Shown: in pieces, positions 9,622 to 51,644 of the stretch
Layout: each line of letters opens with the position of its first letter
Position numbering within the stretch: position 1 is the first letter of the stretch
Virus record (IMG/VR): IMGVR_UViG_3300025000_000141
Span: 1 to 51,644 of that record
Reading direction: 5' to 3' (one strand)
Length of the DNA stretch: 51,644 nt
Source: a virus
The notes under the pieces: model-generated
What the model saw: the letters and a program-made list of their open reading frames with translations, nothing else
Database searches by the model: none
What the model was told of the DNA's origin: nothing
Made by a program: the position numbers and the translations under genes

Positions 9622-9654
9622 GGTAAATCCTCCTTTTGTTTGTATGCTGTTTAG

Positions 9655-9670
9655 GTAGAACAAGTTCTAC
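9655..9670. repeat. intercistronic inverted repeat GTAGAA-CAAG-TTCTAC (site 3)
   Basis: Extended to AGGTAGAACAAGTTCTACCT, a 20-bp inverted repeat. Lies between the stop of the 9685 gene and the start of the 9220 gene. Confidence 0.85.
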
Positions 9671-9684
9671 CTTCCCAACAGTGG

Positions 9685-10254: not shown

Positions 10255-10265
10255 TTTAGCCCTCC

Positions 10266-10529: not shown

Positions 10530-10569
10530 TTTACCCCCGTAGAAACGTTTTAAGTTAGTTAAGGCTACC

Positions 10570-11163: not shown

Positions 11164-11175
11164 GTAACACCTCCT

Positions 11176-13337: not shown

Positions 13338-13353
13338 GTAGAACATGTTCTAC
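13338..13353. repeat. intercistronic inverted repeat GTAGAA-CATG-TTCTAC (site 4)
   Basis: Fully symmetric 16 bp. It supplies the TAG stop of the NAMPT-like gene and separates the converging rightward RNA from it. Confidence 0.85.
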
Positions 13354-14885: not shown

Positions 14886-15696
14886 CTCTTTTTACCTCCG
14901 TATAAAGTTGGTGTATGATAAGATTTTCTAGAGCAGTTGAATTACACATTATGCTGTTTGTAGTATATACTTCGTCTATTAACTTTGATGTAAATATTTT
15001 CCCTGAGAATATAGTGTGCTCACAATGAGCAACCATAAGGTAAATATTCGCAGCGCCATGGGATTTAAGCGCCTCGGCTGCCGCAATAAAAGTTCCGCCT
15101 TTGGAGCATAGATCGTCTACTATCAGAACTTTTTTACCTTTTACACCTGTGCCTGACACAGAGTATTTTATGATATCACCAGTCTTGAAATCCCTTTCCT
15201 TGCTACCTACAGCGGAAGGATACCTTGCAACGTGACTATATCTCTTCTCAGCTCCTGCATCTGGGTAGAAAAGTATGGTGTTGTCCATTCCGTGCTTATC
15301 AACAAAGAGGGCCATGAGGGCTGGTATAATACTAATGTTTGTACACCGGTTTAGAAGAGCAGTAGAAACGTCGGAATGTGCGTCAACTACTTTAACTCTC
15401 GCAAAGTGCATTGCGTTAATCATATCGCATATGTACTTTAAGTTGAAAGTGTATGTGTTGTTGGCTCTGTCCATTCTGCTGTACGGCATGTACAGAATCT
15501 TCAACGTCATTATGTTGTTCGGAATAACGTCATTCATGTAACTGCGAAGTATGTACAAGTCCATAAGGTCTTGATCGGTTTCGAACTTTAGTACAACAAC
15601 TGAGCTGTTGTGAAAAGTTATCTTATTGTAGTTCAGGTATCTTTCGTTGTTAGGAAAAACACCGAACTCAACTTTTACATTGTCAATTAAAATCAC
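14878..15696 (-). CDS. prs: ribose-phosphate pyrophosphokinase family protein (Prs or NARP1 Adps type)
   Basis: 272 aa from a GTG start (AAAGGAGG upstream), shorter than cellular Prs (about 310). Motifs: LKILYMPYSRMDRANN (residues 66-80), VVDAHSDVSTALLN (103-116), LFYPDAGAEKRY and the PRPP loop VLIVDDLCSKGGTF (190-203). It would make PRPP from ribose-5-phosphate and ATP for the partner transferase. In NARP1 the homologous enzyme adds pyrophosphate to ADP-ribose. Translational overlap with the partner supports one pathway. Confidence 0.88.
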   Translation of the reverse strand: MILIDNVKVEFGVFPNNERYLNYNKITFHNSSVVVLKFETDQDLMDLYILRSYMNDVIPNNIMTLKILYMPYSRMDRANNTYTFNLKYICDMINAMHFARVKVVDAHSDVSTALLNRCTNISIIPALMALFVDKHGMDNTILFYPDAGAEKRYSHVARYPSAVGSKERDFKTGDIIKYSVSGTGVKGKKVLIVDDLCSKGGTFIAAAEALKSHGAANIYLMVAHCEHTIFSGKIFTSKLIDEVYTTNSIMCNSTALENLIIHQLYTEVKRDA

Positions 15697-17133: not shown

Positions 17134-17484
17134 TTACTCCTTGAAATATTCGTTGTATGCTTCTACTGCGGCTTTGATTCTGGGCCAGTCTTCCGAATAA
17201 ATATCGAAAGTATGATAGTTTTGTATTGCAGACCCTCGCAGGTAGCATGTTAAAGTTGTTCGCCTAGCATGACTTACTACTTTTTGGGTGTGCGGAATAT
17301 TCCCAGCGTGTGATACTAGGCGCACTCCGTTATGACAGAAGTCTACCGCTTGTTGTATTTGTACTACCTTTGGCAACTTTAAATCCCCAAAATCAGTATG
17401 AAAATGAGTTTGCTCAAGTATAGTTACAGCAGCCGCAGTCCTATCCTCAGACAAAACACATTTAAGTTTTATATGTTTAGGCAT
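17134..17484 (-). CDS. EQTH-family protein (116 aa)
   Basis: Opens MPKHIKLKCVLSEDRTA, then AVTILEQTHFHTDFGDLKLP, FCHNGVRLVSHAGN, LTCYLRGSAIQN and RIKAAVEAYNEYFKE. Tandem with the paralog at 17487-17816; its AAGGAGTAA overlaps the stop of that gene. Confidence 0.85.
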   Translation of the reverse strand: MPKHIKLKCVLSEDRTAAAVTILEQTHFHTDFGDLKLPKVVQIQQAVDFCHNGVRLVSHAGNIPHTQKVVSHARRTTLTCYLRGSAIQNYHTFDIYSEDWPRIKAAVEAYNEYFKE

Positions 17485-17486
17485 AG

Positions 17487-17816
17487 TTACTCCTTGAAAT
17501 ATTCGTTGTAGGCTTTAACGGCCTCCTTAATTAAAGGCCACATGTCGGCAGGTACGTCGAACGCTACGTTTTTTCTACTACTGGATATTAACCTAACATC
17601 AACTTGCCCGTCAGTCTTGTTTCGTCCGTCAAAGTTAGGATAATTATGCGTAGCAGAGAACAGGTCAATAACTCCGTGTCTGAATACTCTGCTATGCATT
17701 CTACCGGAAATATTTCCTCCAAACTCATCATCAAAATGTGTCTGTTCAAGTATAGTCACGGATGCGGTTTGTTTGTTTTTAGATAGTATGGCGGATAATT
17801 TAAGGTGTTTATGCAT
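17487..17816 (-). CDS. EQTH-family protein (109 aa)
   Basis: Opens MHKHLKLSAILSKNKQTA, then SVTILEQTHFDDEFGGNISG, DVRLISSSRKN and LIKEAVKAYNEYFKE. ATG 17816 is preferred because GAAGGGG lies seven bases upstream. A GTG at 17822 overlapping the previous TGA (GTGA) is an alternative that adds two residues. Closest visible relative is the neighbour at 17134. Confidence 0.82.
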   Translation of the reverse strand: MHKHLKLSAILSKNKQTASVTILEQTHFDDEFGGNISGRMHSRVFRHGVIDLFSATHNYPNFDGRNKTDGQVDVRLISSSRKNVAFDVPADMWPLIKEAVKAYNEYFKE

Positions 17817-17818
17817 AT

Positions 17819-17998
17819 TCACCCCTTCAACACATCTTTGTCATCAACCCACACGTAGCCGGTAGCCAACTTGACTAAAGTTTTTCTGGCTACCCGCTCA
17901 TAGACCGCGCCTTTAACCCCAAGCGTAGGAATGAACACCTCTTCGCGTTGCTTGATTATATTGGCAGATTTCCTATATCTTTTGGTTTCGGATTTCAT
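17819..17998 (-). CDS. small hypothetical protein (59 aa)
   Basis: Opens MKSETKRYRKSANIIKQREE and ends YVWVDDKDVLKG. Basic. Its ATG overlaps the TGA of the upstream 47-aa gene (ATGA) and its TGA overlaps the possible GTG of the EQTH gene, giving a coupled chain. No domain recognised. Confidence 0.65.
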   Translation of the reverse strand: MKSETKRYRKSANIIKQREEVFIPTLGVKGAVYERVARKTLVKLATGYVWVDDKDVLKG

Positions 17999-21261: not shown

Positions 21262-21927
21262 TTATCCGATCACAACAGCACAGGCGTCCACCGGTACTTC
21301 TATTGCTTTTGCAGGCGCAGCACATTTCTTCGATGCAGCGTAAACTTCGTTGTATTCTTTGACTGCATCTGCGAGCTTCTTGAAAGTGGCCGCAGGAACA
21401 CGCATGACGTTGTTGTCCGAGCGGTTATCGGTTCCTCGCAGATATAGTTCGTTATGACCTATGCTGTAAAACGCTGGAGATGTATCGCTCAAAAGCTTGA
21501 ACCCATTCGAGGCCACAAAATAGTTTGCATTTTCAGAAAAATCTTTTCGAATGTGCGTCTGCTCAAGAACCTGAACATCCACAAACTGAAAGTCGGGGCC
21601 AACCGGAGTGCCGGAGATCTTGATGTGGCGCGGGTCGAAGGAGAAGAAGGCGTTGTAGGCTTCGACGGCAGCTTTGATCTTGACGTATGTAGCAACTGGT
21701 ACGGCTATGGTTCGGTGGTCCAGATCGCGCCGAGTTCCACGTACATACAGAAGACCCCCATAGAGAGCCAAAGCCCCTTGACTACTAAGAGTGAACCCAT
21801 CGTGCTTGAATTCCTCACCACAAGTACCGAATTCAGCTCCCCTGTGGCTCTGCTCAACAATTCCTATCTCTACTGTCTGAAAATCCGGCCCGATAGGTTT
21901 CACACTCAGTTTGATACTTTTCTTCAT
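21262..21927 (-). CDS. double-domain EQTH-family protein with Cys tail (221 aa)
   Basis: Two complete family domains in one chain. First: MKKSIKLSVKPIGPDFQ, IVEQSHRGAEFGTCGEEF, LYVRGTRRDLDH, KIKAAVEAYNAFF. Second: HIKISGTPVGPDFQ, VQVLEQTHIRKDFSENANYF, LYLRGTDNRSDNN, KLADAVKEYNEVY. It then ends with a linker (CAAPAKAIEV) and DACAVVIG. Both halves share P-[VI]-G-P-D-F-Q, found also in the 8346 gene, so they duplicated from that branch. AAAGGAGG upstream. Confidence 0.85.
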   Translation of the reverse strand: MKKSIKLSVKPIGPDFQTVEIGIVEQSHRGAEFGTCGEEFKHDGFTLSSQGALALYGGLLYVRGTRRDLDHRTIAVPVATYVKIKAAVEAYNAFFSFDPRHIKISGTPVGPDFQFVDVQVLEQTHIRKDFSENANYFVASNGFKLLSDTSPAFYSIGHNELYLRGTDNRSDNNVMRVPAATFKKLADAVKEYNEVYAASKKCAAPAKAIEVPVDACAVVIG

Positions 21928-24853: not shown

Positions 24854-25429
24854 TTAATCTTCGAGATGTGCCCCGTAGTTCCTGCCGTCTGGAAGAGGTC
24901 TAATGGCTGCCTTGTACTTTTGGTATAGAGGGTTTCTCATTAAAAGGTTCTTACCGTACATGTCATAAATCTTATCAAATATACCACAACCTACATCATG
25001 GGTAGGCCCGGTTCCAGAAACACCACCAGTAAGCATGGCAATGAATATAAGCTCTTCCTCTGAAAAATATATCTGTGGCTTTGGCTCTTCCTTTGGTTTA
25101 TCTGAGAAGTGTTCATTGTAGGCTTCGATTGCTGCTTTTACGCGGGGCCAATACCCAAGGGGTATACTAACCTCCATATTATCCCCCCCTTTGTTAGCCC
25201 CTCTGGTGTAAAGAGCTATATCAGCTTTACCGTCCATGAACCTTGGAAGCCCGTCTTTCGTATAGAACTGTGGGTGAGCAGAAGATACAATAGCGCACCC
25301 TCCAGAGAAGAATACCCCTACTCCTTGTGTAATAGTATCTCCAAGATCAACTCCTCGATGAGTCTGTTCCACTATTACGATTTTCATAGTATTTCCTGCC
25401 AATTTGCCTACTACTCTTATGTGTTTCAT
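24854..25429 (-). CDS. EQTH-family protein with C-terminal extension (191 aa)
   Basis: Start set at ATG 25429 (family start MKHIRVVGKLAGNTM, GAGGAGG-like site upstream); a longer frame from 25570 would overlap the upstream gene by over 100 bp. Core: IVIVEQTHRGVDLGDTIT, ALYTRGANKGGDNMEVSIP, RVKAAIEAYNEHF. A 75-residue extension of unrelated sequence follows (FSEEELIFIAMLTGGVSGTG, GCGIFDKIYDMYGKNLLM). No Cys tail. Confidence 0.8.
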   Translation of the reverse strand: MKHIRVVGKLAGNTMKIVIVEQTHRGVDLGDTITQGVGVFFSGGCAIVSSAHPQFYTKDGLPRFMDGKADIALYTRGANKGGDNMEVSIPLGYWPRVKAAIEAYNEHFSDKPKEEPKPQIYFSEEELIFIAMLTGGVSGTGPTHDVGCGIFDKIYDMYGKNLLMRNPLYQKYKAAIRPLPDGRNYGAHLED

Positions 25430-25446
25430 ACCGGTAAATTCCTCCT

Positions 25447-25869
25447 CTATTGTGCTTCGTTTTTGTCGTAGATAGCGGCATACAAGGGTATATTGGCCGT
25501 GCAGCACTGTGAGTTGTAGGCTGCCAAATCGTAGCCTACAACTGCGAACGCCTTGTACATCATTATCCATAGCTTGAGTTCGGCTATCCTTTTGCGGACT
25601 GCCTTGCCGAACACGTAGAAGCGGATGGTGCGTATGATTGGGAGGCGCAGAATAGCATATTCTGCTACTGTTGGTAGTCCTTCGTATCTATTACATCTAT
25701 GCCCTTTTATACTTATCCACGGGCAGGAGTCGCACTTAAGATTACTTACTTTGCACAAAGAACAACCCGTATAGGTCGTCTTGTGCGTGTATTTACGATA
25801 CTCCACTATAAGCTGTTCCATAGCCTTGATATTCTCTTTGACGTTTACCGGGGCCTTAAGCAGTCGCAT
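25447..25869 (-). CDS. Cys-rich hypothetical protein (140 aa)
   Basis: Opens with a helix (NVKENIKAMEQLIVEYRKY), then CSLCKVSNLKCDSCPWISI and HRCNRYEG, a five-Cys cluster that could bind zinc or an Fe-S group. A hydrophobic helical half with QCCTANIP follows. It overlaps the CCA-adding enzyme gene by 14 bp. Function unknown. Confidence 0.7.
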   Translation of the reverse strand: MRLLKAPVNVKENIKAMEQLIVEYRKYTHKTTYTGCSLCKVSNLKCDSCPWISIKGHRCNRYEGLPTVAEYAILRLPIIRTIRFYVFGKAVRKRIAELKLWIMMYKAFAVVGYDLAAYNSQCCTANIPLYAAIYDKNEAQ

Positions 25870-35388: not shown

Positions 35389-35439
35389 AACGCCTCCTTA
35401 GTCATTGAATGTGTGCCATGATAACCGACCATGCAGAAG

Positions 35440-35455
35440 GTAGAACATGTTCTAC
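35440..35455. repeat. inverted repeat GTAGAA-CATG-TTCTAC (site 16)
   Basis: Extended to AGGTAGAACATGTTCTACCT. About 50 bp upstream of the 22-aa gene start. Confidence 0.85.
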
Positions 35456-35464
35456 CTAACTTAT

Positions 35465-35696: not shown

Positions 35697-35921
35697 TTAA
35701 CAGTATTTACCATCCAAAGGGATGAATGTGACTATGTTTCTAGCGCCGTCTGGGATATGTTGAAAGTAATCTTGAAGACAGCACACCCAGGCCTCTTCTG
35801 TGGTTTTGCTAATACCATGTCCTGGCGTTCTCCAATATCCTTTATCAGTAATGTATATGTGCCCTTTAGTTTCTAAGGGAAGGGCTTTAATTTCTTCTTG
35901 GGTTAGTGTTTGAGGTGGCAT
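35697..35921 (-). CDS. hypothetical protein (74 aa)
   Basis: MPPQTLTQEEIKALPLETKG, HIYITDKGYWRTPGHGISKT, then AWVCCLQDYFQHIPDG. TAGGAGA upstream. Unrecognised. It is the last ordinary gene before the iteron-like array. Confidence 0.65.
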   Translation of the reverse strand: MPPQTLTQEEIKALPLETKGHIYITDKGYWRTPGHGISKTTEEAWVCCLQDYFQHIPDGARNIVTFIPLDGKYC

Positions 35922-35950
35922 TTAACGTCTCCTAAGATGTAAGAAAGCGA

Positions 35951-35966
35951 GTAGAACATGTTCTAC
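35951..35966. repeat. inverted repeat GTAGAA-CATG-TTCTAC (site 17)
   Basis: 30 bp upstream of the 35921 start codon and 2 bp left of the AGGGTAAC repeats. Confidence 0.85.
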
Positions 35967-35967
35967 C

Positions 35968-36214
35968 TTTAGGGTAACATGTAAGGTAAGGTAACTTACC
36001 GTTAATATATCTGTTAACCTTTGAGGTAACATGCAAGGTAACATGCAAGGTAATATATCTGTTAACCTTTGAGGTAACATGCAAGGTAACATGCAAGGTA
36101 ACATGCAAGGTAACATGCAAGGTAACATGCAAGGTAACATGCAAGGTAACATGCAAGGTAACGCACTAACTAACCTATCCGTTAACCTTTAAGGTGATGA
36201 TTAAGGTAATAACC
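35968..36214. repeat. 12-bp iteron-like array with 48-bp higher-order repeat
   Basis: Exact tandem copies of AACATGCAAGGT: two at 36028-36051 and seven at 36076-36159. Each block is preceded by an identical 25-mer beginning TAATATATCTGTTAACC (36003-36027 and 36051-36075, exactly 48 bp apart). A degenerate copy follows at 36173-36200. There are no spacers, so it is not CRISPR. GTTAAC palindromes recur. The build resembles iterons of replication origins or partition sites. Confidence 0.8.
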
Positions 36215-36518
36215 CCAAATCCTACCGACCCTCGGTTTCCCCAAACATTATATAGAATATCAATAATAACAAAGTTTATGGGGGTTATGAAACACTACCT
36301 TCACCCAAAACAACCAAAACATAAATCCAATTCTCCCCATACCGCCTTGCCATATGTGATTTCAACTACTTAGCAACTACTCTCAAGGTCATTTTCAAGG
36401 CCACATTCCAGCAATTTTAGGTGCCTCTATTGCCACCTGGGAGTTGAAACCCAACCGTCCGGAATGTGACCTTGAAAGTGACCTTGAAGGTTATCTTTTA
36501 AAAACCTTCAAGGTCAAG
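36215..36518. other. gene-free region with a 27-bp inverted repeat
   Basis: Left part is A/T-rich with no gene. The right part contains arms beginning TCAAGGTCATTTTC (36383-36409) and ending GTGACCTTGA (36461-36487), matching in 25 of 27 positions, both differences being wobble-compatible. The 51-base loop has its own short stems. Nested at its end is a second perfect 12-bp inverted repeat ACCTTGAAGGTT (36481-36492) / AACCTTCAAGGT (36503-36514). The two stems share bases, so they are mutually exclusive RNA folds. Confidence 0.65.
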
Positions 36519-36534
36519 GTAGAACATGTTCTAC
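36519..36534. repeat. inverted repeat GTAGAA-CATG-TTCTAC (site 18)
   Basis: Directly abuts the AAGGTCAAGG repeats; 26 bp beyond the stop of the 49-aa gene. Confidence 0.85.
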
Positions 36535-36559
36535 CCACCGAAAATCAACTCCACCTCCG

Positions 36560-36709: not shown

Positions 36710-36733
36710 TTGCTTCCCTCCTAGGTTTGTGAG

Positions 36734-36749
36734 GTAGAACATGTTCTAC
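36734..36749. repeat. intercistronic inverted repeat GTAGAA-CATG-TTCTAC (site 19)
   Basis: Supplies the TAG stop of the 36-aa gene at 36746; extended to AGGTAGAACATGTTCTACCT. Confidence 0.85.
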
Positions 36750-36856
36750 CTTTTAGTTGTTGGTTTGTTTCTGAAGTAGAGAGTCGATGCGATGCACACA
36801 ACGGTACACCACGCTAAGAACAATAGCGTTTCTTCTAGGGATGTGAGATGTGGCAT
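36746..36856 (-). CDS. very small single-pass membrane protein (36 aa)
   Basis: Product MPHLTSLEETLLFLAWCTVV, then CIASTLYFRNKPTTKR. One hydrophobic helix (about residues 9-27) with a basic C-terminal end, so probably N-out. AAGGAGG upstream, and it ends in the inverted-repeat TAG. Function unknown. Confidence 0.6.
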   Translation of the reverse strand: MPHLTSLEETLLFLAWCTVVCIASTLYFRNKPTTKR

Positions 36857-36900: not shown

Positions 36901-36998
36901 ATTAAAAAATTATAATGTTCAAATCAAAAATAAAGCTTGACAAAATCGCAAAAGTGTGGTATAATAGAGGCATATCTTGAGTGAAACGAAAGATATGC
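36901..36998 (+). promoter_or_regulatory. rightward promoter module with UP-like element and inverted repeat (copy 2)
   Basis: The same 19-mer ATTAAAAAATTATAATGTT (36901-36919) lies 17 bp before TTGACA (36937-36942). The 17-bp spacer ends AAGTGTGG before TATAAT (36960-36965). Inverted repeat GCATATCTT (36970-36978) / AAGATATGC (36990-36998) follows. The repeat sequence differs from copies 1 and 3 but its placement and length match. Confidence 0.85.
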
Positions 36999-37156: not shown

Positions 37157-37222
37157 ACCTTCAATGTTACCTTGCAATTTATTCAGGCGTAGCCAAGTAA
37201 TGTGCAAGGTAATGTTGAAGGT
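37157..37222. repeat. 20-bp inverted repeat
   Basis: ACCTTCAATGTTACCTTGCA (37157-37176) with TGCAAGGTAATGTTGAAGGT (37203-37222), 18 of 20 matched, 26-base loop. Shares the AAGGTAA/ACCTTGCA words with the array at 36.0 kb. Confidence 0.7.
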
Positions 37223-37232
37223 AGAAATCAAG

Positions 37233-37385
37233 TTACTTTCCTTTCAAAGGTAGAACATGTTCTACCTTCATAGCTTCTGTTTTAAGGCGCAAAAAAGCCG
37301 ATCTAACGCAATTATAGGTCAGTACCTGGGCATGGATACCCAAGATATGGCTATAGTGGTTAGAATCGGCTTGTGGCTTTTTCAT
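37233..37385 (-). CDS. possible small protein (50 aa) over a strong inverted repeat
   Basis: Opens MKKPQADSNHYSHILGIHAQ and ends VEHVLPLKGK. AAGGAA lies eight bases upstream of ATG. Unusually, inverted-repeat site 20 lies inside it, and it spans the 13-bp stem at 37295-37372. Either a real short gene or chance over a structured RNA; I lean slightly to the latter. Confidence 0.3.
   Translation of the reverse strand: MKKPQADSNHYSHILGIHAQVLTYNCVRSAFLRLKTEAMKVEHVLPLKGK
37250..37265. repeat. inverted repeat GTAGAA-CATG-TTCTAC (site 20)
   Basis: Extended AGGTAGAACATGTTCTACCT. No start codon of a confident gene lies close on its left. Confidence 0.85.
37291..37382. other. predicted branched RNA structure
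   Basis: AAGCCGATCTAAC (37295-37307) pairs with GTTAGAATCGGCTT (37359-37372). Inside are ATTATAG/CTATAGT, GGT-CAGT-ACC and TGGG-CATGGAT-ACCCA. A competing outer pair AAAAAGCC/GGCTTTTT (to 37382) would make a terminator-like form, so two alternative folds exist. Not a tRNA by sequence, and no known self-cleaving ribozyme core was recognised. Confidence 0.5.
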
Positions 37386-37761: not shown

Positions 37762-37815
37762 GGTTAATGCTCCTTTGCTACGTTCTTTTCTACGTAGCAC
37801 GCTCAAATTTAGCTT

Positions 37816-37875
37816 CTAAAGGCTTTTCTAAAGGTCACTGGTATAGATACTAGTAACCTTTAGAAAAGCCTTTAG
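37816..37875. repeat. perfect 20-bp inverted repeat
   Basis: CTAAAGGCTTTTCTAAAGGT (37816-37835) with ACCTTTAGAAAAGCCTTTAG (37856-37875), 20-base loop. It is 34 bp beyond the stop of the 237-aa gene and may be its terminator, though no T-run follows. Confidence 0.75.
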
Positions 37876-37908
37876 ACTGCCATATCGACAGCCTAAAGGC
37901 CCTTGTTG

Positions 37909-38622
37909 TTAGCCGTTAACCGCTTCTGCCTCCGGCTTTTCTTCTGCAGGAATAGCGCCTTCTTTAGCTTTCAGCTCCCTCTGCTTTTTCTCTTTTTCGG
38001 CCTTTTCAGCGTCAAGATCTGGACGCAACGCGTCTGCTATGGCGGTCAATGCCGGTTTGATTTCTTCCTTCAGCTCCGGTGACAGAAGCGCCGATTCTTC
38101 AAGCACTTTCAATGCAGCAAAGACCTTTGCAAGGTTCTTTTCGTGTTCCGTAGCGATAGGAGCAAAGGCGGGTTTTTTAGCCTTTACTACTTCGCCGGTA
38201 GTTTCATCCTTTACCGGCTCGCCGTCTTTCATTAGCACTTCTTCCGTAAAGTAAAGGTCGGTTATATTCCGGTCGATGTATTGCTGTAAAGCTTTCAGGC
38301 CGGAAGCGCGCTTGTTACCGTGCTTTATTGCTGCGGTAGTCCAGCTGTAAAACTTTGCCGGATTGTTGGGGTTAACGGTGCGGTGTTCTTCCGGAAAGGT
38401 ATCATAGATGCGCTGTACGAAAAGCACTGTGTTTGCTTTTCCCGTCGAATAATCGGTAGTCATCGGGAAAATCGGTTTAAACATTTCAAACAATTCCTTG
38501 CTTCCCTCGTTAATTGCGTCAATCCCCTTGGAGAGGTTAAGCGCCTTTTCTGACGCGATTTTCCCCATTTCAATGAGGTTGACTGCCGCTGAACCTACAA
38601 GAATTTCCGCTGTGTTTGCCAT
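37909..38622 (-). CDS. hypothetical protein with Lys/Glu tail (237 aa)
   Basis: Folded helical part 1-130 (MANTAEILVGSAAVNLIEMG, TGKANTVLFVQRIYDTFPEE, KFYSWTTAAIKHGNKRASGL), a second helical part with KNLAKVFAALKVLEE, and a Lys/Glu/Ala tail. More GC-rich with NNC/NNG codons than nearby genes, suggesting higher expression. AAAAGGAG upstream. Unrecognised. Confidence 0.7.
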   Translation of the reverse strand: MANTAEILVGSAAVNLIEMGKIASEKALNLSKGIDAINEGSKELFEMFKPIFPMTTDYSTGKANTVLFVQRIYDTFPEEHRTVNPNNPAKFYSWTTAAIKHGNKRASGLKALQQYIDRNITDLYFTEEVLMKDGEPVKDETTGEVVKAKKPAFAPIATEHEKNLAKVFAALKVLEESALLSPELKEEIKPALTAIADALRPDLDAEKAEKEKKQRELKAKEGAIPAEEKPEAEAVNG

Positions 38623-38908: not shown

Positions 38909-39730
38909 TACTTAGCAATATAGCATAGTTACAAGGTTACTATAATGTTGTTATGCCTGTTATAACATTGGCTATGGGCCTTACTTGCTTAGATAGTAGG
39001 CACTATTTTCTGATAATTGTGTAAGTACGTGTAATTGTTACATAATGTGCTGCCTAATAAATAGACAGCGTTGATTAAATAATAGGCAATATGCAATGAG
39101 CGTGCCAATATGTAATGAGTAGAACATTTGAGACTTATGTTGATTGTATGGCATGATATATGCATAGTAGCTATAATTGTAATAGTGGTTGGTATGGTAT
39201 ATGCATTAGCATATAGTGTGCCAACGTATAGTCTACTTAATCTATCGACTAAGTATATTAGCTTATCTTCATTAATACGGTCAGTCCTCATGCCTGTATT
39301 ATACACTAGAACAGTGTTATAAAGCCAGCGGAGTATCATTATCCTGGCTTAATGAGTATACGTGGGGGCGGTGCGCTCATTAGAGCCGTTTTAATGAGAG
39401 CTATTTCCCATCCGTTCCACCTGAATAGTTATTTTAAACGTTACATAATTGTAACAACCAAACATAACCATAAACATTATTTAAGTCACTTTCAATACCA
39501 CCTTCAAGACTACCTTAAACATCACCATAAAGGTTACCTTTAAGGTTACCTTAACATCACCTTAACCCGCACCTACCCAGTATTTTACTTAAGGCACCCC
39601 AAAGATTACCTTAAATGTTACTTTCAATATCACCACAAACATTACATTAAACATCACCATAAAAGTAACCTTCAAGATCAATTCCTAAAATTTAAAAATA
39701 AATACCAAATACTATATAGCCATATAAGAA
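38909..39730. other. gene-free A/T-rich region with degenerate repeats
   Basis: More than 800 bp without a supportable gene. The left part has many short inverted words (TATGC/GCATA, GTTAT-N7-ATAAC) and hairpins AAGCCAG-N15-CTGGCTT near 39323-39351 and CTCATTA/TTAATGAG near 39377-39399. From 39430 to 39700 degenerate ACCTTNAA / CATCACC words repeat, complementary to the AAGGT words at 36.0-37.5 kb. Long open frames exist on both strands but lack ribosome sites and have repetitive products. Confidence 0.6.
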
Positions 39731-40289: not shown

Positions 40290-40757
40290 TTACTCTACCT
40301 TAAACCTAAAAGGTTCCTTTCCTTGTCTAAACAACCATATTGCCTCAGCCTGGCAGCAATGACCTTCCTGCCCGAAGAAGTCAGAGAAGCCATTATACTG
40401 TTCTATGACTTTTATAAGTTCAGGGTTTCCTTTTAGGTACACCCACCATAGCATGTAATAGAATTCTTTCAATAAACTTACCGGCCATTTTTTACCATTA
40501 AACATAAAAGCAACTGTGGTCTTTCCTTTAGCTTCCTTCCAATGTAACCCAGTCTCTAAATTGCCCCAGGCATCTTCAATTACTTTGGCACGCTGGAACC
40601 TAGACTCTATTGACTCGCTTAGGATTCCGCTGCCTATGTAGGCGTTAAAAGCACTAAATCTCTTATCGCCTCTATTACTACATTCAAGGAATGGCGGTTC
40701 TCCAAAGAACTGCATATTATCTATCCCTACTAATATCAGATAGACTTGTTCTGTCAT
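40290..40757 (-). CDS. hypothetical protein (155 aa)
   Basis: MTEQVYLILVGIDNMQFFGE, PPFLECSNRGDKRFSAFNAY and a C-terminal half rich in Trp/Phe/Tyr (LLKEFYYMLWWVYLKGNPEL, HCCQAEAIWLFRQGKEPF). Looks like a compact enzyme fold but no signature recognised. Overlaps the upstream zinc-ribbon gene by 41 bp. Confidence 0.65.
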   Translation of the reverse strand: MTEQVYLILVGIDNMQFFGEPPFLECSNRGDKRFSAFNAYIGSGILSESIESRFQRAKVIEDAWGNLETGLHWKEAKGKTTVAFMFNGKKWPVSLLKEFYYMLWWVYLKGNPELIKVIEQYNGFSDFFGQEGHCCQAEAIWLFRQGKEPFRFKVE

Positions 40758-44938: not shown

Positions 44939-45009
44939 TGGTAGCGGAAAAGAGTACTGCCCTCTTCTACCTGAGCTTATGAAACTCTGGTGGTCACTTG
45001 ACCTTCCGC
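44939..45009 (-). tRNA. reduced tRNA-Met (anticodon CAU)
   Basis: Acceptor GCGGAAG/TTTCCGC, D-arm GGTC-AAGT-GACC with a 4-base loop, anticodon loop TTCATAA (CAT), T-arm AAGAG-GGCAGTA-CTCTT without the TTC motif. The 3' end reads TACCA, one base more than expected. CAU could also be modified to read Ile AUA, and the cca enzyme could trim or rebuild the end. Confidence 0.65.
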
Positions 45010-45020
45010 AACATTTTGTA

Positions 45021-45098
45021 TGGCACCAGCGGTTGAGAATCGGACTCACCACAGAAGGTTTTGGAGACCTTCTCGCCTACCTTGGAACATGCGCTGGC
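45021..45098 (-). tRNA. tRNA-Trp (anticodon CCA), 3' CCA encoded
   Basis: Acceptor GCCAGCG/CGCTGGT, anticodon arm AAGGT-CTCCAAA-ACCTT with CCA, T-arm TGAG-TCCGATT-CTCA, discriminator G, CCA. The D-stem is weak. Confidence 0.85.
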
Positions 45099-45104
45099 AT
45101 ATTT

Positions 45105-45245
45105 TTATTCATCCAACATTACCAACTCTTCACCCAAAAACGTCCAAACAGCACCACATAAGCCACACTCCCTAACATCTTGAGAAAACCCATCAGACGA
45201 GCTTAGTGCTACTTTTTTACGTTCTTTGCATCTAGGGCACTTCAT
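45105..45245 (-). CDS. small zinc-ribbon protein (46 aa)
   Basis: Opens MKCPRCKERKKVALSSSDGF, then VRECGLCGAVWTF and ends EELVMLDE: C-P-R-C and C-G-L-C at ribbon spacing. First gene of the transcript from the promoter at 45276-45304, just ahead of the tRNAs. AAGGAA upstream. Confidence 0.65.
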   Translation of the reverse strand: MKCPRCKERKKVALSSSDGFSQDVRECGLCGAVWTFLGEELVMLDE

Positions 45246-45275
45246 GTTATTTTCCTTTTCAATTTAATATGACGC

Positions 45276-45304
45276 ATTATACCACACTTTATGTAATTTG
45301 TCAA
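45276..45304 (-). promoter_or_regulatory. strong sigma70-type promoter, leftward
   Basis: TTGACA (45304-45299), 17-bp spacer ending AAGTGTGG, TATAAT (45281-45276). Its upstream A/T element overlaps the 3' end of the glycosyltransferase gene. Drives the zinc-ribbon gene and the four-tRNA cluster. Confidence 0.88.
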
Positions 45305-45307
45305 GCT

Positions 45308-46030
45308 TTATTTTTTGTTCCACAGTTCTTTTTTAAATTCGTATTTTTCTTTATTTAGCTTCCAATCTTTAAGTTTGATATTTTCATCATTAAACGGGAG
45401 TTTATATGTTTCGTTACCAGGAGGACCGCCCCACTTTTCTTGGAAATACATTCCGCACATATTAAACGTATCGTTGTTGGCATTAGTGTAAGCTTCTGAC
45501 TTACGTATTGTAGCTGACCCGTAGTGTGAAAATAACGTAGGATCGCCTATAAACTTCCAAGGCACTCCTGAAAGACTAACTCTTCGGTGATAGTCATTGT
45601 CGCTAAAATATATAAACATATTAGCGTCGAAACTGCCTACCTTTTCATAGCAATATTTAGTCATACACCAGCAGTTCCAAGAGAACTCGTTAGCTACCGC
45701 AAACTCTAATTTGTTATATTCAAATTCATTTATAAACCCCTCTAAAAAGCCTTCTTTCATTTCTGTATCAGAACCCACTACTATAACTGCGTCCATATCC
45801 GTGTTTATTTCAAAAGCAATTTTTAGAATAGTATTCCAAGCAGCGGATACTCCTAAATGCTCGGGACTTGCTGCGTAAGATATATCAGTGTACTTATTAA
45901 GTTGTTCTGCAAATAGGCCTGTATCTTTATCTATAAATACCAGTCTATGGCCTATACTAGGCCAACTAGAAATACACTTTTCCAGAAGGTCTGGGTTACT
46001 GAACGCGGATGTTGCAAGCAAATATTTCAT
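45308..46030 (-). CDS. glycosyltransferase family 2 protein (240 aa)
   Basis: GT-A fold features: MKYLLATSAFSNPDLLEKCI, YAASPEHLGVSAAWNTIL, AVIVVGSDTEMKEGFLEGF (D-x-D-like G-S-D-T-E), WCMTKYCYEKVGSFDANMFI and FSDNDYHRRVSLSG with an acidic pair for the acceptor base. Single domain, no membrane anchor. Start overlaps the upstream TGA (ATGA). Last gene of the glycan operon. Confidence 0.8.
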   Translation of the reverse strand: MKYLLATSAFSNPDLLEKCISSWPSIGHRLVFIDKDTGLFAEQLNKYTDISYAASPEHLGVSAAWNTILKIAFEINTDMDAVIVVGSDTEMKEGFLEGFINEFEYNKLEFAVANEFSWNCWCMTKYCYEKVGSFDANMFIYFSDNDYHRRVSLSGVPWKFIGDPTLFSHYGSATIRKSEAYTNANNDTFNMCGMYFQEKWGGPPGNETYKLPFNDENIKLKDWKLNKEKYEFKKELWNKK

Positions 46031-46653
46031 AGTATTGTAAGTACACTCCGTTTATATTCTTCTAGCTGTTCAAGTGTGTTGTTTAACTTTCCATATATTT
46101 TATGGAACTCCATGTGGATAGGTTTTAGCAGCACTACTCCTGCTCCTATAGCATAGTGTATATCTAAAATAGCCTCTTCTAGTTTTAATAGCTCCATATC
46201 ACTATACTTATTAAGCTCCTTATTAAATGCTATACTACAATTATAATGTACCTCTTTTACTAACTGTGCATATGGAATATGGTGATGAATATGAAATTCT
46301 CCTTTACAACTAGTAACATAACATTTATAATTATGGTAGCTTAAACTGTACTTTTGCCAAGGTTTTATAAATTTCCTAAGGTGGCTTGATATACCACTAA
46401 TGCCTCCTTGGTAATTCCAGTGATTTCCATTTCGTTGTTTTAATGATAATTGTTCTCTATGGCACTGCCTACACCCATGACCACCGCGCAAGTTACTATA
46501 GGTGATGCTTTGTACATATTCAAGGTGCTTATCACAGATATAGCGTAGCTTAGCGTGTGAGTGCATATATTCTGTGTCTATTAATGTGTATCCATACTTA
46601 CGGAATTCTTTGTACACAAAGTCATAAGTTAATTTATTAGAAGGATTCGGCAT
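46027..46653 (-). CDS. HNH-type homing endonuclease with zinc-ribbon N-terminus (208 aa)
   Basis: N-terminal module KLTYDFVYKEFRKYGYTLID, KLRYICDKHLEYVQSI, HGCRQCHREQLS is the Cys-containing DNA-binding type found in some phage HNH proteins. The catalytic part has YVTSCKGEFHIHHHIPYAQL (H-H-H) and a later PIHMEFHKIYG, an HNH-like layout. It sits between two glycosyltransferase genes without breaking either. Confidence 0.7.
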   Translation of the reverse strand: MPNPSNKLTYDFVYKEFRKYGYTLIDTEYMHSHAKLRYICDKHLEYVQSITYSNLRGGHGCRQCHREQLSLKQRNGNHWNYQGGISGISSHLRKFIKPWQKYSLSYHNYKCYVTSCKGEFHIHHHIPYAQLVKEVHYNCSIAFNKELNKYSDMELLKLEEAILDIHYAIGAGVVLLKPIHMEFHKIYGKLNNTLEQLEEYKRSVLTIL

Positions 46654-46656
46654 TAG

Positions 46657-47376
46657 TTAAAATACCCTCTCATCGTTTTCGTGTTCTTTTAGTTCTGTTC
46701 TAATCTGCTCTTCGGTTATATTATGATGGTGTGCAGTAAGTCCTTTTTCTAGGTTAGACCTAGACATACGTTCTTTCCTGTTTTTAACTCTGCGTTCTAC
46801 TACATATGAAGGGTCTGCCATCTGCCAGTGACTACCTATAAAATCTGGTTCATTACTATCCCACGAGCAGTAATGTTTCTCCCCTACCCAACACTCATGT
46901 ATACCTAGACCCCACCTAAAATTAGGCAATCCACCTTTAATGATATTCGGTTTTTTATACATTTTGTGAAAGACCCCGTGCCTACGCTGTTCTTTTATAG
47001 GTAGGGCAGGGTCAAGGTCGCGCTCAGTGTGGTGTCTAAAAACATCGTACAGTTTAGTAAAGTAAACATCCTTTTCTCCGTCTAAGAGTTGGTAGTCAAT
47101 GATAAATTCATCTGCATCGACGAGGACCACAAAATCTGCGGATGAATTTTGGTAGGCTTGGTTTAGAATATCTGTCTTTATAAGATCATCCATTCCAGAC
47201 GGAAATGAAAAGGAGCGAATTCTAGTATTAGGATAGCCCTCTACTATTCTTTTGGTATCGTCTGTAGTATCTGCGTCTAGGTATACAGTTATTAAATCTA
47301 TATCCTTGTAGTGATTTAGAAAGAACGGCATAAGGAACTGCTCATTGTAGGCCATAACTATTAATTCAGTGGTCAT
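46657..47376 (-). CDS. glycosyltransferase family 2 protein (239 aa)
   Basis: MTTELIVMAYNEQFLMPFFL, ITVYLDADTTDDTKRIV, SADFVVLVDADEFIIDYQLL (D-A-D metal motif near residue 94), HGVFHKMYKKPNII, and a C-terminal KGLTAHHHNIT. Close to the GT2 subfamily with D-x-D-E-F. Start shared with the upstream stop (TAATG). Confidence 0.82.
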   Translation of the reverse strand: MTTELIVMAYNEQFLMPFFLNHYKDIDLITVYLDADTTDDTKRIVEGYPNTRIRSFSFPSGMDDLIKTDILNQAYQNSSADFVVLVDADEFIIDYQLLDGEKDVYFTKLYDVFRHHTERDLDPALPIKEQRRHGVFHKMYKKPNIIKGGLPNFRWGLGIHECWVGEKHYCSWDSNEPDFIGSHWQMADPSYVVERRVKNRKERMSRSNLEKGLTAHHHNITEEQIRTELKEHENDERVF

Positions 47377-48110
47377 TATAGAAGCTCTCCTACAAATCCA
47401 GTAGGAGCGCCCTCTTCAATAAACAATTCTATAATTTTATCATAAAACTTAGGAATCCATGTTTTTAGTTCTGGCAGTGATAAGTTATTTTTAACAATAT
47501 TAGCCTTCTTACTACAGAAAACTATATTCCCAACGATATATCCTAACTCAGGGATTATTTTGTCTATAGAAAATGAGCTATTAGCGCGTGTGTTTCCCAT
47601 TCGGTAGTCTAGTTCCTCACCAAAGTAAAAACATTTACCGTTTTGTTTGCTCCATAAATACTTGAAGTATTCTACAGTAAGATCGCCCAACGGTATTCCT
47701 TCTTTAGTTGCTCGTCTCCTAAGTCTGGAAATCCTTTCATGCATGTTCGCTTCTATCGACCTATTACGCCTTTTAAGGACTTTAGCGCGGAAACATTCAT
47801 GGCAAATAGCGCGCCGTCTTCCTTCTGGGTACTTTTTCCTGTCTCTTCTGGTGTGACTTTTAACTATATCAAAACTGGATAGAGGTTTCCACGCCCCACA
47901 TTTTGTGCAAATAGCTTTATCGTCTTTTATAAAAGAGTACACTAGCCGCCCACCTGAGTAATTTGGGATAAGGCTATTGTCTTTAAAGTATCGTTTTAGG
48001 TAAAGCATAGATGTGTTTAGTATTTTTGCTATTTCTTCTCTTGTCTTTCCTTCATTATTTAGTTTTATAACATCGTCTAACGTAAAATTATAATTGTACA
48101 CAATAGGCAT
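47376..48110 (-). CDS. HNH endonuclease with HTH and zinc modules (244 aa)
   Basis: N-terminal HTH (TLDDVIKLNNEGKTREEIAK, ILNTSMLYLKRYFKDN), Cys pair AICTKCGAWKPLSSF with RAICHECFRAK, then NGKCFYFGEELDYR, SFSIDKIIPELGYIVGNIVF and CSKKANIVKNNLS, the D-K-I-x-P-x-x-G-Y-x-x-x-N-I pattern of phage HNH variants. Inserted between the radical SAM and GT2 genes with TAATG overlaps on both sides. Confidence 0.8.
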   Translation of the reverse strand: MPIVYNYNFTLDDVIKLNNEGKTREEIAKILNTSMLYLKRYFKDNSLIPNYSGGRLVYSFIKDDKAICTKCGAWKPLSSFDIVKSHTRRDRKKYPEGRRRAICHECFRAKVLKRRNRSIEANMHERISRLRRRATKEGIPLGDLTVEYFKYLWSKQNGKCFYFGEELDYRMGNTRANSSFSIDKIIPELGYIVGNIVFCSKKANIVKNNLSLPELKTWIPKFYDKIIELFIEEGAPTGFVGELL

Positions 48111-49000
48111 TATATCGTTTCCTTTGCTATCCCTAACCCTTCACCACAAGACGAATCATCCACTAGATCTCCCCTATAGTTACCGGGAAACCACTTTTCA
48201 GCATTTACTTTTATTTCTTCTTTGGATAATTTTATGTCAAATACTTCTACAAATTCCTCCCCAGTGCTTTTAAGATTGCGCTCCCTAAACATATCTAGAA
48301 GTTTTGGTGTAAATTTTTCTTTTGTGTTTTTAATGAGTTCCCTATCGACAGGGAGGGCCATACCACAAAACTTGCATAAAGCTTCTCTTTGTTCTTTATA
48401 CTGCTCAGGAGATTTGTCCCACCAGTGGCCCTCTGTGGGCCAAGCGTGCGCCCCATCAAACAATATTAAATCAATAGCAGCTGAAATTTCACAGAAATAG
48501 CTCCCGAATTTATTGGAGGTTCCGCACCAATTTTTCTGGGTCCAACAGTTATCTACCAACTTTTCCACCAGCAATTCATCTTCTACCACTTCCGAAATTG
48601 CGAGAGAGAGGGGCTGGTGTTTGCAAGTATTTTTTTGATGTTCTGAGTGCTCGTTAAAGGCCACAAACCCGAAAGTTTCATTTATAGTGGGAAGGTACTC
48701 TTGATATTTATGCCCTCCAGAAGTCCATAGTCCCATTTTTTCTTTTGGAAATATTTTCTGAATCTGCTTACATATATCTATAAATTGTGGGTGCAGTATA
48801 GGCTCCCCTCCAATTATACCTATTGTTTTAGGCCAGCCCACAAGGGAATTCAAAACTTTATCGACCTGCTCTAAAGGCATAAAATACTTCTGATCGTTCC
48901 TAATATGCCGATTGTACCTGCTACAGTATAAGCAGTCATGCCCTACGCAGACATTAGTGATATCTACTTGAATGCACCATTGATCAGTCATTTTAATCAT
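48110..49000 (-). CDS. radical SAM protein (296 aa)
   Basis: Residues 8-30 hold CIQVDITNVCVGHDCLYCSR. The cluster Cys are C18, C23 and C26, i.e. C-x4-C-x2-C instead of the usual C-x3-C-x2-C. IGIIGGEPILHP gives the G-G-E-P SAM motif, then KMGLWTSGGHKYQ. The C-terminal half has EALCKFCGMALPVDRE, a possible auxiliary cluster or zinc site, and CKHQPLS, NCWTQKNWCGTS. Lies between a methyltransferase and glycosyltransferases, so the substrate may be a sugar, lipid or peptide in that pathway. AAGGG upstream. Confidence 0.82.
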   Translation of the reverse strand: MIKMTDQWCIQVDITNVCVGHDCLYCSRYNRHIRNDQKYFMPLEQVDKVLNSLVGWPKTIGIIGGEPILHPQFIDICKQIQKIFPKEKMGLWTSGGHKYQEYLPTINETFGFVAFNEHSEHQKNTCKHQPLSLAISEVVEDELLVEKLVDNCWTQKNWCGTSNKFGSYFCEISAAIDLILFDGAHAWPTEGHWWDKSPEQYKEQREALCKFCGMALPVDRELIKNTKEKFTPKLLDMFRERNLKSTGEEFVEVFDIKLSKEEIKVNAEKWFPGNYRGDLVDDSSCGEGLGIAKETI

Positions 49001-49001
49001 T

Positions 49002-49589
49002 TTATGATCCCTTAGTAAAATTCTTAAATTCTTCTACAGATATTAACCTCAAGGCATCTACTCGATTCTCTACTAGCCACTCCCAAGTAAGCTCTTCGTC
49101 AACACTAGGGTTGTATATTTTGTGTTCCTTCGGGAAAAATACTCCAACCCCGTAGTCAGTGTCTACTACGAAAGATTCGTACCCATACCCGTAATTTATA
49201 TCTACAATGCTCTTCCATGTGTCGCCAGTCCATTCTGAACAAGTAGGAGGTATGGTCTGTAGATACTCTGAGTGTGGACTGCAATCATGCATAACTATTA
49301 CTCCACTTGAATTAAGAACTTCCAGTGAATTCTGAAAATCCTTAAAAGACTGCTCTCTAGTGTGAAGCCCATCTATAAAAACTATATCAAACTTAGCCTT
49401 GTTACTTGCGAAGAATTCATCAGAGGGCATTTCATGTGTGACCTCTTCGCATTGCTTTACAGGATCAACTCCTACCTTAATTTGTGCATTTACGTTTCTT
49501 ATAGAGTCTCCTACGTTGACACCTATTTCAAGATAGCTTTTGTAGCCATACTTAGCAATAAGACTATTAATTATATCTATTCTATTCAT
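49002..49589 (-). CDS. class I SAM-dependent methyltransferase (195 aa)
   Basis: KSYLEIGVNVGDSI (motif I, near residue 18), IKVGVDPVKQC, FDIVFIDGLHTREQSFKDF (acidic loop near 70) and GVIVMHDCSPHSEYLQTI: the Methyltransf_24 pattern, often O-methylation of glycans. The C-terminal part is specific (DINYGYGYESFVVD). Overlaps the GT4 gene by 8 bp. Confidence 0.82.
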   Translation of the reverse strand: MNRIDIINSLIAKYGYKSYLEIGVNVGDSIRNVNAQIKVGVDPVKQCEEVTHEMPSDEFFASNKAKFDIVFIDGLHTREQSFKDFQNSLEVLNSSGVIVMHDCSPHSEYLQTIPPTCSEWTGDTWKSIVDINYGYGYESFVVDTDYGVGVFFPKEHKIYNPSVDEELTWEWLVENRVDALRLISVEEFKNFTKGS

Positions 49590-50925
49590 GCATACCCTCT
49601 ATAGCTACAGATTCGTCTTTCATTACTTCCTCAATTACGCCTTCGAATTCTTTTGCAGCAAAGTCCCAACTGAACTCAGGTTTGTTGGCGAAGGCTATTG
49701 CCGACTTCGACCAAGCATCTCTCTTTTTATCATCCCTAATCATATTCTTCATAGCGTTGGCGAAATCTGTAGGCTTTACTAGAGGGCGCTCGAAAGGCCC
49801 GTGCATCCCGCCTAACCAGTATTTGTCTGCGTTAACTAAAAGGCCGTTTCCCTTAACCATGTCAGTTATACTACCAGCTCCATCAACTCCTATCTGTGGT
49901 AGCCCACAGGCTGCTGATTCTAAGTGGCAAAGTTCAAACCCTCCGCCTATACAAGTAGAAATAAAGCAATCGGACATTCTATATATGTCGGCTATCTCTT
50001 CGTTAGTAAGACCTTCCGTAGCTCTGTCTGAGCTATTGTTGGTTATGATTACCTTTCCATTAATTCCAAGCCTGTCTATAAGTTCTGTTAAGTTCCACCC
50101 AACATCAACATTTTTGCAACCCAATACTAATACTGAGTTTGGGTATTTCCTTACAACCTCTTTAAAAGCCTGTAGTGCTAGAGGCTGCTGTTTACGAACC
50201 GAGTTCCTTCCTACGTATGTAAAAACAAAAGCATCCTTGTTAATGTTGAATTTGCTTCTGATTTCAGCTTTGCGCTCAGGTGAACAGGGGTAGTACGTAG
50301 ATAGATCAACCCCATGATTGATTGTTTTCATACTTGCTAAAGCTCTACTATAGTTGCCTATGTGTAGTTTTATAAGCTCCAGTTGCTTATCTACCCAAGC
50401 AGTTTCAGTACTTCTAGATTCTATAAGCTGATGCCCTGCCGCTCTAAGTTTTGTTATCTGTCTGACAAACTCGTTTCGTATAGATACAAACCCAAATTCG
50501 TGGATAGGTACTATGTAGTTAAACCCAGCCAACATTTTAAGCCAGTTAATCGGAAGAGGCGCCCCGTCGATAGGAACGTGGGTAACAGCTTTAAATGTGT
50601 TGCGCAACTTTATAGGCACTATGGTATTATCGTTTATAAAAGAGTTCATGTGTACGTCCAACAGAGATATTACAACGTCAGGTTTGAACTCTTCTACGAT
50701 TGGTACGAATTTGTCTTCTGAATACTGGTCTTCGCCGCTAGTATATATTTTCCAGTTAGGCTCTTGCTTGTAGCCTTGACCTTCTGGATTCCCTAGCCCT
50801 AGTTCAGCTATTTCGTATTTATTAGTGGCGCTAAGTCTGTTCAGTAGCTCTAAGGATACTTTTCCAAATCCTGAGTTAGAGGATACTGAGCAATCAGAGT
50901 GCCATAGAATTTTAAGTTTGGACAT
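49582..50925 (-). CDS. glycosyltransferase family 4 (GT-B) protein (447 aa)
   Basis: N-terminal Rossmann half starting KILWHSDCSVSSNSGFGKVS, then VTHVPIDGAPLPINWLKM and IVPIHEFGFVSIRNEF. Linker NHGVDLSTYYPCSPERKAEI. Donor half: FVFTYVGRNSVRKQQPLALQ (near 222), VIITNNSSDRATEGLTNEEI, YRMSDCFISTCIGGGFELCH and LESAACGLPQIGVDGAGSIT (E-x7-E region). Uses a nucleotide sugar. First glycan gene of the operon. AAGGAAG upstream. Confidence 0.88.
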   Translation of the reverse strand: MSKLKILWHSDCSVSSNSGFGKVSLELLNRLSATNKYEIAELGLGNPEGQGYKQEPNWKIYTSGEDQYSEDKFVPIVEEFKPDVVISLLDVHMNSFINDNTIVPIKLRNTFKAVTHVPIDGAPLPINWLKMLAGFNYIVPIHEFGFVSIRNEFVRQITKLRAAGHQLIESRSTETAWVDKQLELIKLHIGNYSRALASMKTINHGVDLSTYYPCSPERKAEIRSKFNINKDAFVFTYVGRNSVRKQQPLALQAFKEVVRKYPNSVLVLGCKNVDVGWNLTELIDRLGINGKVIITNNSSDRATEGLTNEEIADIYRMSDCFISTCIGGGFELCHLESAACGLPQIGVDGAGSITDMVKGNGLLVNADKYWLGGMHGPFERPLVKPTDFANAMKNMIRDDKKRDAWSKSAIAFANKPEFSWDFAAKEFEGVIEEVMKDESVAIEGMHE

Positions 50926-50987
50926 TAAAAGCTTCCTTCATATAGTTTATATACATCAAAGTGGTGGTAAAATATTAAAGTTATTTT

Positions 50988-51176
50988 CTAATTACTGGGA
51001 GTATACCCATCTTTTGCCCAGCCTTTACCTTTAAGAATAACTGCTACAGGGCCTATAGTCGGCTCCATTTCACTACCACAGGTAGGGCATTCATAAGTCT
51101 TAGGGCTGTTAAATTTTTTGAACACATCAAATAAACGCTCTCCACATTTTTCACATTTAAAATCCAACAACGGCAT
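50988..51176 (-). CDS. FmdB-like zinc-ribbon protein (62 aa)
   Basis: MPLLDFKCEKCGERLFDVFK, then TYECPTCGSEMEPTIGP and a Gly-rich end. This is the FmdB/YgiT-like single ribbon with the characteristic M-P-x-x-[DE]-[FY] start. AGGGGG upstream. Role in phages unknown. Confidence 0.8.
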   Translation of the reverse strand: MPLLDFKCEKCGERLFDVFKKFNSPKTYECPTCGSEMEPTIGPVAVILKGKGWAKDGYTPSN

Positions 51177-51179
51177 TTT

Positions 51180-51401
51180 CTATGTCCCCCTGTTCTTACG
51201 CCTAGATTCCTTGGCTATCTTTCGCTTGACCTTGGATTTAGCTTTTTTATTCTGAACCTTCTTCTGTGTAATCTCAAGCTTCTTTAGTTGAGCTTTTTTG
51301 TAGGCCAGCAAATCAGCCACAACTTTATCGCGGCGGGATACTGCCTCTTCTATTCGAGCTACCTCGTCTACTGAAGTTGCTTCGCCGGGTGAACCTGTCA
51401 T
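51180..51401 (-). CDS. basic coiled-coil protein (73 aa)
   Basis: ATG 51401 has AAGGAGG upstream. Acidic start (MTGSPGEATSVDEVARIEEA), then a long Lys/Arg helix (KAQLKKLEITQKKVQNKKAK, KRKIAKESRRKNRGT). First gene of the leftward operon that ends at 45308. Confidence 0.7.
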   Translation of the reverse strand: MTGSPGEATSVDEVARIEEAVSRRDKVVADLLAYKKAQLKKLEITQKKVQNKKAKSKVKRKIAKESRRKNRGT

Positions 51402-51431
51402 TTTAAATCCTCCTTGATTTTTAAATAATGC

Positions 51432-51460
51432 ATTATACCATACTTTACCCAAAAAGTCAA
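51432..51460 (-). promoter_or_regulatory. strong sigma70-type promoter, leftward
   Basis: TTGACT (51460-51455), 17-bp spacer ending AAGTATGG, TATAAT (51437-51432), 31 bp upstream of the ATG at 51401. Drives the 51.4-45.3 kb glycan operon and is back-to-back with the rightward promoter at 51519. Confidence 0.85.
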
Positions 51461-51482
51461 GTAAAATATTTCAATTTGGAAA

Positions 51483-51582
51483 AATAAAAAATTATTTTCA
51501 CTTTCTGAAAGATTTTACTTGACAAATTTCAATTTCTGTGGTATAATGCATTCATCGAGCCGTTAGGCGAAGATGAATGCTA
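51483..51582 (+). promoter_or_regulatory. rightward promoter module (copy 3)
   Basis: A/T element AATAAAAAATTATTTTCAC (51483-51501), aligned at the same distance as the 19-mer of copies 1 and 2, then TTGACA (51519-51524), a 17-bp spacer ending TTCTGTGG and TATAAT (51542-51547). GCATTCATC (51548-51556) / GATGAATGC (51572-51580) follows with the same 15-base centre as copy 1. Confidence 0.85.
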
Positions 51583-51592
51583 AGAGGTTGTC

Positions 51593-51640
51593 ATGGTGTT
51601 GACTTTGACTTATGCCTTTATATGCCTCCCCTACCCCTAA
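51593..51640 (+). CDS. possible 15-aa leader peptide
   Basis: MVLTLTYAFICLPYP from ATG 51593 with AGAGG five bases upstream, on the transcript of promoter copy 3. The window ends just after, so the rest of this transcript cannot be judged. Compare the short frames in the other two rightward transcripts (13246, 37025). Confidence 0.35.
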   Translation: MVLTLTYAFICLPYP

Positions 51641-51644
51641 ACAT

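Follow-up and report, generated by a model that had tools for sequence, protein, structure and literature searches.

The window, which is the whole stretch of 51,644 nucleotides of viral DNA that was analysed, carries a tandem array of 17 uninterrupted 12-bp units; the array is real and bigger than the nine units described by an earlier, sequence-only reading. Two sister phages have arrays of the same position and orientation, the flank of the array is conserved on one side only, the duplex beside it is of low stability, and the array contains no credible gene. It most likely acts at the DNA level, offering a protein of the phage a series of repeated binding sites, with a replication origin as the leading candidate, a reading to which a probability of about 40% is given.

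Structure of the 12-bp array

36004..36207, + strand: primary array of 17 uninterrupted 12-bp units in a single register, nine of them perfect AACATGCAAGGT (36028-36051 and 36076-36159) and the others degenerate
35968..36003, + strand: degenerate fringe of the array, out of register, with GTAACATGTAAGGTAAGGTAACTTACCG at 35974-36001

The nine perfect AACATGCAAGGT units are present as first described, two at 36028 and 36040 and seven at 36076-36159, and a window-wide search returned no further perfect copies. In 12-nt steps from 36004 the units are AATATATCTGTT, AACCTTTGAGGT, AACATGCAAGGT twice, AATATATCTGTT, AACCTTTGAGGT and AACATGCAAGGT seven times, and past this perfect block the register runs on for four more units, AACGCACTAACT, AACCTATCCGTT, AACCTTTAAGGT and GATGATTAAGGT. 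The 25-mer TAATATATCTGTTAACCTTTGAGGT, which had been thought to lead each block, does occur ahead of both (36003-36027 and 36051-36075), but it is not a separate leader, being made of two degenerate 12-mers in the same register. Because the 25-mer and the later units share one 12-bp register, the proposed 48-bp superrepeat is a mere by-product of it. The longest exact run at lag 12 is 79 bases, compared with at most 11 in 100 first-order Markov shuffles, which excludes a chance origin of the array.

The array sequence is identical in G001, the sole other record of this phage that was found. Searches of viral contigs with the array unit or with a strict two-unit motif returned only the same phage or no match, and in a BLASTN comparison of the region with phages and plasmids the sole match was 40 nt of promoter sequence, in two Vibrio phages. 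The suggested check of copy number between isolates could thus draw on only two records of the phage, in which the primary array is the same, while a second array, described below, varies between two close relatives.

The phage and its relatives

Judging from its genes, the phage is a remote T5-like relative, a context that the sequence-only reading did not have. Its terminase, portal, prohead protease, capsid, polymerase A, primase, helicases, SbcCD-like protein and flap nuclease show ~21-34% identity to those of T5 and Vibrio phage phi3 and stand in a comparable order. The genome is ~113 kb as assembled, and the G001 record (113,294 bp) is 99.9% identical to the window over 43 kb. The two records diverge before 1.7 kb and again, sharply, beyond 44.9 kb, where a block of glycosyltransferase-like and methyltransferase-like genes is found (window 44942-51644, G001 87090-92465).

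Two sister phages, G004 (113,142 bp) and G005 (105,687 bp), were recognised by polymerase profile, and their DNA polymerase is 61% identical. The replication set of these phages comprises polymerase A, a DnaB-like helicase and primase-like proteins. L124 is a near relative of G005, and L127, which has only one weak homologue in common, was left out. Since G004, G005 and L124 come under one IMG/VR metagenome number and G001 under another, the sampling is narrow.

Other genes of the window include a NADAR-family protein (40290-40757; DarT1-associated antitoxin family, Pfam PF22397), which is likely a counter-defence gene, and adjacent genes for nicotinamide phosphoribosyltransferase and ribose-phosphate pyrophosphokinase (13350-15696), with 44% and 33% identity to Vibrio phage phi3 genes. 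There are also ~10 small paralogous proteins with a HIK...ILEQTH...F core (2229-2885, 7860-11451, 17134-17822, 21262-21927 and 24854-25570).

Counterpart arrays and the second array

G004 carries five copies of CATGACTTGGCA and G005 nine copies of ATATTACTTGGA, both arrays lying between the orthologues of G001 80057-80770 and 74196-74648. Rotated to the orientation of the window, the units of G001, G004 and G005 are CAAGGTAACATG, CAAGTCATGTGC and CAAGTAATATTC, which run in one direction and have a common CAAG core, and lag 12 gives the most clusters among lags 8-19 in each of the three genomes. The presence of arrays with different letters at the same position in such distant cousins suggests a working protein docking site, and the retention of place, pitch and direction while the letters change would be the expected look of a binding array that co-evolves with its protein.

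A functionless satellite, generated by replication slippage and homogenisation, would account for perfect copies that appear recently homogenised, for a unit sequence that varies between phages and for the varying length of the second array in two close relatives. Such an origin is nevertheless unlikely, as the place, the 12-bp pitch and the orientation are common to three phages whose polymerases are only 61% identical, and the flank is conserved on one side only.

39473..39676, - strand: second, degenerate 12-bp array (RTYACCTTNAAN), ~3.3 kb from the primary array and in the opposite orientation, with a counterpart at the same place in G005 and L124
39731..39757, unstranded: terminator-like hairpin bounding the second array, with a comparable hairpin there in the sister phages
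37909..38622, - strand: gene for a 237-aa protein between the arrays, its place kept in both sister phages at ~25% identity

The second, inverted array had escaped the sequence-only reading. Its counterparts in G005 and L124 retain the 12-bp register, one being ~138 bp long and the other ~250 bp, and in G004 it has apparently decayed. The 237-aa protein is a putative candidate for the array-binding protein, named as such only because of its place and its fast divergence. The core of its structure model is moderately confident; the protein gave no fold or family match, and the model contains no recognisable DNA-binding fold. A scan of genome contigs for a neighbouring protein came back empty.

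Gene content and non-coding surroundings

The description of the area as gene-free is nearly right. The 2.5 kb around the array hold no ORF of at least 80 aa, but small genes with ribosome-binding sites flank it on both sides (e.g. 35697-35921). This is the only 2.5-kb interval of G001 without such an ORF, and it has the lowest coding density in that genome. The array itself might be thought to encode a translated repeat protein (12 being a multiple of 3), and it is indeed crossed by open frames in several readings, one of which reads T[LFW][HKN][VIM] in G001, G004 and G005 alike. However, none of the three phages has a start codon with a ribosome-binding site in the array frames, those of G005 contain neither ATG nor GTG, and the lengths and ends of the frames vary among the three. 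With no credible gene in any frame of the three genomes, a protein-coding array is rejected as extremely improbable.

The long inverted repeats reported nearby are borne out (fold z -5.9 to -9.3). The claimed promoter is likewise present and is a perfect sigma70-type one, yet it lies 700 bp off and is directed away from the array.

36383..36515, unstranded: two strong hairpins with TTNAAGGTNAC-type 12-bp repeats in their arms, fold z -5.9
37157..37222, unstranded: hairpin with the 12-bp motif in its arms, fold z -6.8
37815..37876, unstranded: hairpin with 30-bp arms and AAAGG 12-bp repeats inside, fold z -9.3
36937..36965, + strand: perfect sigma70-type promoter ahead of a predicted small RNA whose 5' hairpin is at 36969-36998

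Degenerate 12-bp repeats of the TTNAAGGTNACN form are found both in the hairpin arms and in the second array at 39473-39676. A two-unit motif, matched at 15 or more of 18 positions, occurs in 25 places in G001 and in 5 in G004, where 0.1-0.5 are expected, and in none in T5 or phi3; as this motif was chosen by visual inspection of G001 and G004, its clustering alone counts as evidence.

The small RNA predicted at this promoter is one of a family, all on the strand that most genes do not use (window 13167 and 36937; G001 36249, 79085 and 92340), each having a perfect or near-perfect TTGACA-17-TATAAT promoter and a hairpin at its start. Similar promoter-plus-hairpin units are present in G004 and G005, and a predicted small RNA at 55.3 kb of G001 has 12-nt repeats inside (TATGCCTTGCTG). 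The 5' hairpin RNAs of the window matched no family in Rfam.

Start-associated palindromes

A further feature that the sequence-only reading lacked is a 20-bp palindrome, of which five copies lie inside 1.9 kb around the array.

35438..35457, unstranded: start-associated palindrome AGGTAGAACATGTTCTACCT
35949..35968, unstranded: start-associated palindrome adjoining the array and preceding the ribosome-binding site of the gene at 35697-35921
36517..36536, unstranded: start-associated palindrome copy
36732..36751, unstranded: start-associated palindrome copy
37248..37267, unstranded: start-associated palindrome copy

A different dispersed palindrome is present in each of the three phages, in 26-31 copies, namely GTAGAACATGTTCTAC in G001 (29 copies), ACTTCCGATNNATCGGAAGT in G004 (27) and TTGGTAATTACCNA in G005 (28-31), and none is common to the sister phages. 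The copies mostly stand just 5' of the ribosome-binding sites of genes, and some in G001 overlap the stop codon of the upstream gene. In cluster K mycobacteriophages, start-associated sequences are a dispersed, phage-specific motif just upstream of gene starts. The palindromes described here would resemble these in being dispersed, phage-specific and near gene starts, and differ from them in being palindromes of 16-20 bp whose sequence changes with each sister phage.

These palindromes, several copies of which lie near the array in each phage, could indicate a hub of expression control, in which array and palindromes together bind regulators of the small early genes nearby, as an operator array or a transcription-factor sponge. 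The small-RNA promoter close to the array is in line with such a function. It would, however, leave the one-sided conserved melting element and the strict 12-bp register unexplained, and no regulator was identified, so this explanation is considered improbable.

The one-sided element and the replication origin

36183..36339, + strand: conserved non-coding element (~155 bp by local alignment) on one side of the array only, overlapping its last two units
36247..36296, + strand: easily melted stretch within this element, a candidate unwinding element, its 50-bp stability ranking among the lowest 0.5% genome-wide

The 3' flank of the G001 array aligns locally with that of G004 at a score of 72 and, more weakly, with that of G005 at 50, while shuffles have a mean of 28 (sd 4.5) and none of 200 reaches these scores. 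Between G004 and G005 the score of 39 is matched by 4 of 200 shuffles and is not above chance, and the 5' flank gave no above-chance alignment in any pair of the three. The 3' side holds stretches of low duplex stability: at no more than 200 bp from the array, G001 and G005 have stretches that rank in the lowest 0.5% and G004 has one in the lowest 3.8%. The melted stretch of G004 is only moderate, and that of G005 overlaps the array's own fringe. Following the melted stretch, the + strand is poor in G (~36290-36370), with C minus G within the top 0.3% of windows. As a unique mark of the flank this G-poverty is weakened, since it ranks in the top 0.3-2% of windows and is not extreme.

In the origins of lambda and of iteron plasmids, iterons lie next to an A+T-rich region at which the duplex opens (PMC5043065). 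As in the origins of phage lambda and of plasmids P1, RK2 and R6K, the multiple direct short repeats seen here, 17 in register, adjoin a conserved, A+T-rich and easily melted region, and among the candidate functions an iteron-type origin would best fit the one-sided melting element. Unlike those origins, this one would have as many as 17 head-to-tail units at a pitch of 12.0 bp, which is out of helical phase, whereas the iterons of plasmids as a rule keep the phase of the helix (PMC5043065), as well as a second inverted array 3.3 kb off, no recognised initiator gene and no DnaA box. The DnaA box TTATNCACA is absent near the array in G001, G004 and G005, profile searches of the three did not find the T5 origin-binding protein, and no initiator gene or array-binding protein was identified. 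GC skew, a proposed check, showed no inflection at the array over all positions or at third codon positions and is uninformative.

If the array is an origin, molecules of a phage initiator would line up head to tail on its 17 units, and this loading would strain the conserved, easily melted element (36183-36339) until the strands open there. Loading of the DnaB-like helicase, primase and family A polymerase that the phage itself encodes would follow, while the opposite-facing second array (39473-39676) and the hairpins may bound or regulate the initiation complex. In this model, protein binding, strand opening and initiation are inferred steps.

Centromeres of the parC and tubC type are built from short repeats that follow one another head to tail at a steady spacing of about 10-12 bp. 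A partition centromere bound by an adaptor of the ParR or TubR type would accordingly resemble the array in its short tandem repeats and steady pitch. The three genomes differ from type II and III systems in having no tubulin, ParA or convincing ParB gene: the ParA and tubulin (TubZ) families were unmatched in G001, G004 and G005 while positive controls were detected, and the single ParB_N match sits within a long tail gene. This negative rests on the ParA, tubulin and ParB_N models, the ParM model being uninformative. As there is no ParA or TubZ, and it is not evident why a lytic T5-like phage should need partition, a centromere is very unlikely. Of the three functions put forward by the sequence-only reading, origin, centromere and sponge, the first is hence the best inference and the second is disfavoured; their common element, a protein-binding array, is supported by the sister phages and by the one-sided melting element.

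Comparison with the T5 injection-stop region

The closest rival to the origin reading is an injection-stop region of the T5 type, an alternative that the sequence-only reading did not consider. The array would then belong to a non-coding region of repeats and hairpins at which DNA entry pauses once an initial portion of the genome is inside, or which marks where a long terminal repeat ends. Descriptions of the T5 signal list repeats, inverted repeats, palindromes and DnaA boxes, and the second step of DNA transfer requires A1 and A2 (PMC13250531). Four Demerecviridae, namely T5, Vibrio phage phi3, My1 and Sugarland, have a non-coding gap of ~1.7-2.1 kb that spans the end of the terminal repeat and hosts short tandem arrays. 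T5 (L020, 9753-10478) and phi3 (L021, 7527-7749) have seven directional GTGCAAAWCCGA motifs around the long terminal repeat's inner end.

The region described here is similar to that of T5 in several respects. The gene order is remotely T5-like, the non-coding gap is gene-poor and contains directional short repeats, inverted repeats or hairpins, and palindromes, and the distance to the terminase gene, ~14 kb in this phage, ~10 kb in G004 and ~12 kb in G005, is comparable with the ~12-13 kb of the T5 gap. Unlike in T5, profile searches of G001, G004 and G005 gave no match to A1 and A2, the genes of two-step transfer, or to the pre-early gene dmp, DnaA boxes are absent near the array in all three, and motif and pitch are different, GTGCAAAWCCGA being absent. 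The would-be terminal repeat holds PhoH and tRNA genes, and no terminal repeat is visible in the assembly, although a metagenome assembly would collapse one. Without matches to A1, A2 or dmp, classing the array as an injection-stop signal is not justified; it could act like one, but this identity is considered doubtful.

Implications for T5-like phages

A broader and rather speculative interpretation joins the two opposed 12-bp arrays at fixed map positions with the phage-specific start palindromes into a private address code for replication or genome entry. The array letters would be swapped wholesale between species, with pitch, place and orientation unchanged, because a fast-evolving DNA-coating protein with a 12-bp footprint co-evolves with them.

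In T5-like phages the mapping of origins and of entry-control sites is poor, and arrays of this type are usually dismissed as low-complexity DNA. Arrays that are conserved in position while their sequence is turned over would offer a concrete site for locating the start of copying or the pause in entry, and likewise a handle on which protein recognises the 12-bp pitch.
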